From: Chitinophagaceae bacterium
GTDB taxonomy: Bacteria; Bacteroidota; Bacteroidia; Chitinophagales; Chitinophagaceae
Direction of reading: 5' to 3'
Assembly: GCA_019638615.1 (NCBI GenBank)
Contig: JAHBTL010000010.1
Span: 1 to 64,000, forward strand
DNA length: 64,000 bases
Shown here: positions 20,007 to 21,033 of the stretch, piece after piece
Layout of the letters: every line of letters starts with the position of its first letter
Position numbering within the stretch: position 1 is the first letter of the stretch
Position numbers and translations under genes: made by a program
The notes under the pieces: model-generated
Told to the model about the DNA's origin: nothing
What the model saw: only the letters and a program-made list of their open reading frames with translations
The model's database searches: none

Positions 20007-20084
20007 AGATTTATATGCAATCAAATAAACATCACAACAATTCTATTTTTGGAATAAACATATCATTCAGAACTATAAAGCAAT

Positions 20085-20469
20085 GGGTGCATTTCAAATT
20101 TTCGCAGGCGGGTGGTGACCTGCCTACCATGCCTACGGCAGGTAAACCGGCAGGCACCCGCCTGTGGAGCCCGCTACCGGTCGGTGTCCCACAATTGCCG
20201 TCAACTTAAGCCCTCCGGGCTTGAACCGTGCCTGCGGCAGGCAGGTTTGAATAGCCGTGAGTGAAACTCACGGTAAAAATGTCAAAATTTTTGTTGAACC
20301 CTGCAAGGGTTCAATATCAAAACGGTTTCATTTGTCCACCGGTTGCACCGGTGGCTATTTAGATTAAACCCCATTCGGGGTATTTTATCGCTTAGGTTCC
20401 TAAAGTTGACGCACATGGTGTCCCACCGACCGGAAAGTTATGCAGGGGGCGAAAATTTGAAATGCGCAC
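20085..20469. mobile_element. 385-bp inverted-repeat element with 9-bp target duplication
   Basis: The ends are GGGTGCATTTCAAATTTTCGC (20085-20105) and its inverse GCGAAAATTTGAAATGCGCAC (20449-20469), with two mismatches over 21 bp. TAAAGCAAT flanks it exactly on both sides (20076-20084 and 20470-20478). The inside holds four hairpins in a row: CCGTGAGT/ACTCACGG (20255-20273), TTGAACCCT/AGGGTTCAA (20294-20314), CCACCGGT/ACCGGTGG (20336-20354), ACCCC/GGGGT (20368-20381). No coding frame. It lies 42 bp upstream of the 20512 gene and just before its -7 box (20500-20507). Confidence 0.85.
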
Positions 20470-20499
20470 TAAAGCAATATCCGCTACCATCAAATTTAT

Positions 20500-20507
20500 T
20501 ATTTTTG
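20500..20507 (+). promoter_or_regulatory. -7 box ahead of the 20512 gene
   Basis: TATTTTTG, a perfect TAnnTTTG, four bases before the ATG at 20512. Transcription starting 5-7 nt on would leave little or no leader. Confidence 0.5.
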
Positions 20508-20511
20508 CTTC

Positions 20512-21033
20512 ATGAATCTTGAATACAAATCACTTTTGCCTGAAGGATTTCACGATTCTTCAAGAGTATGGATATACCAGAGCAGCAGGATGTTTACATT
20601 GTCGGAAGTATTGAACCTGGAACACATGTTAAACACCTTTGCTGCTCAATGGCATGCGCATGGCGATGCGGTAAAAGGATTTGCTACTGTGTTCTTTGGG
20701 CAGTTCATTGTTATAATGGCCGACGAAACGCAAACAGGTGTAAGCGGATGCAGCACCGACAGTTCAGTAAGAATGATCAAAGAAATTGAAAAACAATTCA
20801 ATGTACATTTATTCGATCGGCAGTCACTGGCATTTGTAGTAAAAGACAAAATCCAGCTATTGCCACTCAGTCAGTTAAACTACGCGGTTCAAAACGGGTT
20901 TGTTACGCCTGATACGCTTTATTTCAACAACACAATTCTCACCAAAAAGGAACTTGAAACAAGCTGGATCAGACCTGTTAAGAATAGCTGGCTTTCAAAA
21001 AAAATAAACTTTCCCGCTTCTTCCATTCATTAA
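20512..21033 (+). CDS. conserved hypothetical protein
   Basis: 173 residues, probably cytosolic: no signal peptide or membrane segment. It is a Bacteroidota conserved protein sometimes mis-annotated as 'ABC transporter ATPase'. I see no Walker motifs, so that label is not justified. The pattern SSRVWIYQSSRMFTL and FGQFIVIMADETQTGVSGCS is family-like. It is the gene nearest the 20085-20469 element and may share a transcript with the SlyD-like gene 37 bp downstream. Confidence 0.8.
   Translation: MNLEYKSLLPEGFHDSSRVWIYQSSRMFTLSEVLNLEHMLNTFAAQWHAHGDAVKGFATVFFGQFIVIMADETQTGVSGCSTDSSVRMIKEIEKQFNVHLFDRQSLAFVVKDKIQLLPLSQLNYAVQNGFVTPDTLYFNNTILTKKELETSWIRPVKNSWLSKKINFPASSIH

Follow-up and report, generated by a model that had tools for sequence, protein, structure and literature searches.

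A probable three-layer nest of non-autonomous transposons ahead of a 173-aa gene in a Chitinophagaceae bacterium

Background

Terminal inverted repeats that start with GGG are a trait of the ISKra4 and ISLre2 families. In the MIC231 mobile insertion cassettes, the transposase is replaced by passengers. MITEs, IS4-family ISs that target REP palindromes, and REP arrays accompanied by Y1 genes are all already known. For IS231, Table 1 of PMC2266710 gives the end pattern CAT-------AA--TAA--- and duplications of 10-12 bp, and the part of that paper drawn on here also reports passenger genes in IS231 elements. ISRm22 and other ISs insert into REP palindromes, as stated in the portion of Tobes and Pareja 2006 (PMC1525189) cited here.

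The current work concerns a 385-bp stretch in a window of 64,000 nucleotides (the whole stretch of DNA that was analysed) from the genome of a Chitinophagaceae bacterium (G000; 7.18 Mb, 87 contigs). This stretch is very probably a non-coding nest of three layers: two non-autonomous transposons, one inside the other, and a REP-type hairpin array carried by the inner one. As with ISRm22, an IS4-family element is involved and copies lie in repeated palindromes; in contrast to the insertions described in the cited part of that paper, hairpins of another MITE serve as targets here as well, and copies that are non-autonomous insert in the same way (PMC1525189). The innermost layer is like REP/BIME arrays, and like the REPINs that go with RAYT/TnpA_REP, in that short scattered palindromes lie beside Y1 genes, and unlike them in being packaged between IS4-type ends (PMC2817692, PMC3116915).

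Structure of the nested element

The element occupies 20085-20469. Its 21-bp inverted ends agree at 19 of 21 positions and share a perfect 17-bp core, and direct 9-bp copies of TAAAGCAAT abut it on both sides, as the initial annotation had described. It is located between a gene for a cation-efflux protein upstream and a 173-aa gene downstream; the distance from its 3' limit to the ATG at 20512 is 42 bp, also in agreement with that description. The internal stem arrays proposed earlier are real, the plus strand (scored over 20086-20470) folding 9.65 standard deviations below its shuffles. With up to 3 mismatches allowed, the window has four occurrences of the 17-bp core, versus 0.62 expected by shuffling, and the 385-bp element is the only two-ended copy at this limit. 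Both target duplications and the anatomy of the nest can be read directly in the following parts.

20076..20084, no strand: outer target duplication, left copy TAAAGCAAT (sequence and copy comparison)
20085..20105, plus strand: layer 1 left terminal inverted repeat GGGTGCATTTCAAATTTTCGC (inverted-repeat and end searches)
20106..20163, plus strand: layer 1 hairpin 1, AGGCGGGTG GTGA ... CACCCGCCT (read against insert-free copies such as L079)
20119-20154, plus strand: 36-nt hairpin in the loop of hairpin 1, without duplication, presumably added as an insert
20177..20183, plus strand: layer 1 hairpin 2, 5' stem CCGGTCG (sequence and copy comparison)
20184..20192, no strand: layer 2 target duplication, left copy GTGTCCCAC
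20193..20417, plus strand: layer 2, a 225-bp MITE with mutated IS4/IS231-like ends and a REP-type hairpin array inside (consensus ends are those of the L299/L309 IS)
20208..20222, plus strand: array hairpin a, AAGCCC TCC GGGCTT
20226..20245, plus strand: 20-nt extra palindrome CCGTGCCTGCGGCAGGCAGG, in 8 of 40 aligned copies with small variants
20255..20273, plus strand: array hairpin c, CCGTGAGT GAA ACTCACGG; both stem sides vary between copies
20294..20314, plus strand: array hairpin d, TTGAACCCT GCA AGGGTTCAA
20336..20354, plus strand: array hairpin e, CCACCGGT TGC ACCGGTGG
20368..20381, plus strand: array hairpin f, ACCCC ATTC GGGGT
20418..20426, no strand: layer 2 target duplication, right copy GTGTCCCAC
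20427..20433, plus strand: layer 1 hairpin 2, 3' stem CGACCGG
20449..20469, minus strand: layer 1 right terminal inverted repeat GCGAAAATTTGAAATGCGCAC
20470..20478, no strand: outer target duplication, right copy TAAAGCAAT
20500..20507, plus strand: TATTTTTG, beyond the element; may be the Bacteroidota -7 box of the gene that follows
20512..21033, plus strand: downstream gene, 173 aa, no Pfam match, present in 22 of 22 genomes searched

The outer MITE and its probable transposase

Layer 1 is a MITE with ends GGGYGYATTYCAAATTKTCGC and target duplications of 8-9 bp. A genome-wide search for the ends, a check named beforehand in the initial annotation, revealed many copies in G000: the 17-bp end has 80 matches at up to 2 mismatches, against one for a reversed control. 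The 385-bp element has at least 65 BLAST matches in this genome, with 40 of the 127 first-look candidates scored. The analysis covered 80 stretches of G000 around element or end matches. Two-ended copies in this genome extend from about 77 bp up to several hundred bp, and the short ones share one plan: end, hairpin 1 (AGGTGGGTG GTGA CACCCACCT), hairpin 2 (CCGGTCGGTG TCT CACCGACCGG), end.

A set of 103 two-ended copies was assembled, 43 from G000 and related genomes and 60 from public contigs, with copies having identical 14-base flanks on both sides merged. An exact direct repeat of 7-9 bp flanks 38 of the 103 (8 bp in 23, 9 bp in 13, 7 bp in 2) and is absent in the other 65; shuffled flanks give about 0.4 per run. 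With up to 1 mismatch, the end is found in 12 of 12 genomes of the genus, G000 included, and in 0 of 26 non-genus genomes among the relatives searched. The exact end occurs in at least 114 stretches of public genomes, and all listed titles name Bacteroidota. Among the matches listed, the hosts belong to Chitinophagaceae, Saprospiraceae, Cyclobacteriaceae, Flammeovirgaceae and Pedobacter, and also to Bacteroidales such as Tannerella and Prevotellaceae.

Further insertions can be observed within layer 1 copies. In L068, L074 and L023, hairpin 1 is filled or replaced by an element whose ends resemble GGGGCTGACCAAAAAGGT. Hairpin loops contain small hairpins of about 27-36 nt, without duplication, in the window element and in L046, L052, L066 and L078; by eye, the clearer cases of such inserts are at GA^CAC.

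A probable transposase of layer 1 was traced from a partial frame at a contig edge (L097), which adjoins an exact layer 1 end and resembles ISKra4 and ISLre2 transposases. When 58 genomes were searched with this frame, two carriers were found, G006 and G009, both of the same genus as G000. The G006 element (L242) is 1275 bp long, has both layer 1 ends with 1 mismatch each, and is flanked by an 8-bp duplication AGGCAGCA; its transposase frame holds two stops. In G009 (L241) the frame is intact at 338 aa, the left end has 2 mismatches and the right end 5, and no target duplication is seen. Against the ISKra4 model NF033572, the full frame reaches 189.5 bits; because this is below the curated cut-off of 205, the enzyme is named ISKra4/ISLre2-like here. 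It is above the Pfam UPF0236 cut-off. The transposase has no match in G000 at E 0.001, and in the collected contig loci no transposase between a long pair of layer 1 ends was confirmed. The proposed search for a transposase with matching inverted repeats was therefore answered within the genus by L242, and less cleanly by L241, and not within G000 itself.

Layer 1 is short and non-coding, has terminal inverted repeats and duplications at many sites, and has a transposase-bearing partner with the same ends, which places it among MITEs. The earlier view of a mobile element holds, given the many copies with their own duplications and the transposase element in the same genus; its composite nature, with a second MITE of another transposase family making up most of the length, had been missed. 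Layer 1 is like ISKra4/ISLre2 MITEs in that its ends begin with GGG, in its 8-9 bp duplications and small size, and in sharing its ends with an element bearing an ISKra4-like transposase frame. It is unlike them in that this transposase stays below the ISKra4 cut-off, the ends span several Bacteroidota families, and the window copy holds a second MITE.

The inner MITE and its IS4-family partner

Layer 2 splits hairpin 2 of layer 1 at the loop and is flanked on both sides by GTGTCCCAC. Its ends in the window have 6 mismatches over 32 positions. Elsewhere it is about 204-206 bp long, has ends CATAGCCGTCAACTTAAG, and is located in the same hairpin of other layer 1 copies, in other hairpins, and at a few sites that do not extend into a hairpin. 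Searches with layer 2 DNA detected it in 10 of 12 genomes of the genus (in G009 as a 22-bp fragment only) and, beyond the genus, as weak fragments only in 2 of 46 other genomes. A search for its ends in 294 genomes of the family gave matches in 14, distributed over 8 of 101 genera.

The same ends, exactly CATAGCCGTCAACTTAAG, bound a 1563-bp IS in G136 (L299/L309), whose frame of about 500 aa encodes an IS4-family transposase. Its duplication, GTGAGACAC, lies inside GGTTC...GAACC. The L299 transposase reaches 240 bits with the IS4 model NF033592 against a curated cut-off of 115, so it belongs to the IS4 family, and the Y(2)R(3)E(6)K (YREK) motif is present in 9 of 9 IS4 frames checked. Related copies with ends CATAGTCGTTAAGCTAAG were found in the same genus, one in G002, one in G006 and five in G007, and their frames are 32-34% identical to the L299-type frame. 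Six of these seven copies have a clean 10-bp repeat, with an outer stem of at least 3 pairs in five of the six; L323 has no clean 10-bp repeat. The G006 copy (L317) sits in hairpin 1 of a layer 1 MITE that has lost its right end. The IS4 transposase has no match in G000 at 1e-20. Transposase-bearing elements with matching ends thus exist in relatives for both layers.

Another interpretation of layer 2, a REP array in the bare palindrome CGTCAAC...GTTGACG, was rejected, since empty palindromes are not above control level. Other elements of related build were also noticed. Several copies of another layer 2 type, about 335 bp long with ends CATAGGCG, are present in G002 and appear, by eye, to carry palindromes like those beside the Y1 gene L245. 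In G191 and G115 (L295, L296, L306, L307), repeated ends CATACGCGTCAACTTAAG occur, many close to contig edges; they probably belong to another IS with the same end type. At L214 653-1701 (G001:C51), four layer 2-like arrays stand in a row with layer 1 half elements between them.

The history of the two layers was examined in 19 composites. Their layer 2 copies are 96-100% identical inside outer copies that are only 64-80% identical; for example, L047 and L067 share 100% in layer 2 and 69% in the outer element, and L020 and L068 share 98% and 79%. Near-identical inner copies in divergent outer copies imply that layer 2 entered layer 1 hairpins repeatedly and independently, and the same hairpin site has been used repeatedly. 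An alternative is that layer 2 was inserted once and then spread inside layer 1, the composite moving as a unit. Several composites do have clean outer duplications, and L214 and L236 are similar in both layers (0.91 outer, 0.93 layer 2); this pair may reflect a unit move or a shared ancestor. The identities within the 19 composites argue against the alternative, as do the variety of hairpins that layer 2 occupies and its occurrence in either orientation relative to layer 1. Unit movement as a general rule is rejected by this comparison, and we regard it as an unlikely origin of the nest; a few unit moves may have occurred.

Target sites of the inner layer

The targets of layer 2-type elements were collected as 73 end pairs, copies with identical 14-base flanks on both sides being counted once (12-base flanks in the initial layer 2 listing). 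Direct repeats with at most 1 mismatch were found in 36 of the 73, of 9 bp in 20 and of 10 bp in 16, and no other lengths between 7 and 13 bp were seen. The remaining pairs comprise 5 with an inverted repeat and 32 with no clean repeat, part of which are chance pairings or recombinants. Target motifs were studied in a set of 36 (at most 1 repeat mismatch) that is without the window copy and includes the L062 pair, split in the 73-pair set. The left copies read GTG-N3-CAC or GTG-N4-CAC in 21 cases and CGC-TTT-GCG in 2, and are imperfect in 13; the repeat of L321 lies one base off the palindrome centre.

In 21 of the 36 targets the palindrome extends at least 3 exact pairs outside the duplication, a count that rises to 31 under a lax test allowing one mismatch. 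By comparison, such an outer stem is present at 1 of 12 GTG-N3/4-CAC sites in the window. By a simple letter test, 12 of the 36 targets resemble hairpin 2, and 13 of the other 24 have the outer stem. Some targets, such as L064, L213, L218, L234 and L235, have no extended hairpin. Because many targets are related and palindromes lie in harmless places, survivorship can account for part of the palindrome excess.

These data suggest that the IS4 enzyme is guided by the hairpin or by its GTG...CAC half-sites; the enzyme may recognise either half-sites at two spacings or the shape of the hairpin, and both fit. Tentatively, the IS4-type transposase might read DNA shape and cut three bases on either side of the hairpin loop, a possibility to which we give less than even weight. 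A three-base loop would then yield a 9-bp duplication and a four-base loop a 10-bp one. Each inserted palindrome would give new loops, hairpins would grow within hairpins, and the whole would fold as one.

In the 40-copy layer 2 alignment, three-base loops appear in both orientations in nearly identical copies (AAA/TTT, GTA/TAC). Some layer 2 duplications are inverted rather than direct (L024, L047, L228, L275, L284), as if loops flip.

Both CATAGCCGTCAACTTAAG and CATAGTCGTTAAGCTAAG fit by eye the IS231 end pattern tabulated in PMC2266710, and the L299-type IS is like IS231 in its YREK motif, single frame and length of about 1.55 kb. The 9-bp (20/36) or 10-bp (16/36) duplications are unlike the 10-12 bp that the same table gives for IS231 (PMC2266710), and for this reason L299-type elements are called IS231-like and not IS231. 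The target, GTG-N3/4-CAC, and the passenger, a REP-type array or a Y1 transposase gene, also differ from those of IS231 and MIC231.

The REP-type array and Y1 genes

Five hairpins, of which three lie within a longer stem, make up the array inside layer 2. In G000, two genes identified by Pfam as Y1 transposases, L247 and L248, have related palindromes on both sides in inverted order. In single-locus nhmmer searches, the arrays flanking L247 gave E values of 1e-14 and 7e-12; those flanking L248 gave 5e-12 and 5e-11, and another array, about 0.9 kb off, gave 1e-15. Such palindromes are found, too, around a frame in L231 that looks Y1-like by eye. In G010, such arrays enclose an intact Y1 gene of 147 aa in an 876-bp relative of layer 2 (L270), which itself sits inside a layer 1 MITE with both ends. 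Related palindromes flanking a Y1 gene, which characterise REP/BIME arrays, are therefore present at L247, L248 and L270. Unlike the RAYT proteins of REP/BIME/REPIN systems, the Y1 protein here is above the IS200/IS605 cut-off and resembles the REP-transposase model only weakly.

The association of the array with Y1 genes, and the Y1 gene inside L270, could mean that a Y1/TnpA_REP enzyme, not an IS4 transposase, moves layer 2. The printed flanks of L247 and L248 are without CATAGCC ends, however, and the IS4 element has exactly the ends of layer 2 and the same kind of duplication. To our knowledge, Y1 elements make no 9-10 bp duplications. A Y1 mover consequently seems hardly credible, and an IS4-type transposase is preferred.

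The hairpin array could also be read as a functional non-coding RNA or mRNA-control element under selection, with the repeats at its edges incidental. The strong fold (z -9.65) would suit such a role; stem c is changed on both sides, with pairing kept, in about 11 of 40 copies, and at least one paired change is found in 8 of 51 base pairs. Against this, copies lie at many places, each with its own duplications, and covariation contributes little (-1.85 of -51.86 kcal/mol). Stem c also varies among the arrays beside Y1 genes (L231, L247), which makes swapping between REP types an alternative explanation of its changes. No Rfam match was found in the window at gathering thresholds. A selected RNA is considered highly improbable, and a mobile origin of the array is favoured.

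The downstream gene

The closest orthologue of the 173-aa gene is in G002 (82% identity). By eye, what seems to be the same upstream gene ends much closer to the orthologue in G002, and the element is absent. In G005 and G004 (L333, L334), apparent layer 1 end remnants were noticed by eye ahead of the same gene; the gap before it may accordingly have been hit more than once.

Sigma-70 patterns suit Bacteroidota poorly. A scan of the element for sigma-70-type promoters, the only promoter type scanned, found no match (1.3 in shuffles), and terminator-like matches are about as frequent as in shuffles (1 versus 0.8). In 6 of 10 orthologue rows, the sequence TATTTTTG recurs shortly ahead of the gene, the L331 and L336 rows being uninformative, as they are not anchored at the gene start. 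Matched to TAnnTTTG, which we take to be the Bacteroidota -7 consensus, it is likely the -7 box of the downstream gene, judging from the sequence. The regulatory effect on this gene suggested by the initial annotation is possible; the present scans do not support it.

Conclusions

From these comparisons we infer the following order of events and movement by transposases of the partner types. An ISKra4/ISLre2-like MITE would have entered between the cation-efflux gene and the 173-aa gene, duplicating TAAAGCAAT; a DDE transposase that was not detected in G000 would have moved it in trans. A MITE with IS4-family (IS231-like) ends would then have entered the centre of layer 1 hairpin 2, duplicating GTGTCCCAC and bringing with it a REP/BIME-like array of the kind located beside Y1 (TnpA_REP/RAYT-like) genes in the genus. 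As neither DDE transposase was found in G000, the window copy is probably immobile now, and a stranded nest of selfish elements is the simplest account.

No report of three-layer nesting, hairpin-loop landing sites or the 9/10-bp rule was found in the literature searched, which lies mostly outside subscription journals. Among parts that are otherwise known, what looks new is the nesting, together with the target rule of two spacings.

Hairpin loops serve repeatedly as landing pads in these genomes, and the probable enzymes can be named. In this way, anonymous palindromes that form a large class in Bacteroidota genomes are assigned likely enzymes. Between the ends of another transposon family, REP-type arrays and a Y1 transposase gene ride as passengers. 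The natural set of insertion sites at two spacings makes hairpin targeting by a DDE transposase, and the control of duplication length, directly testable.
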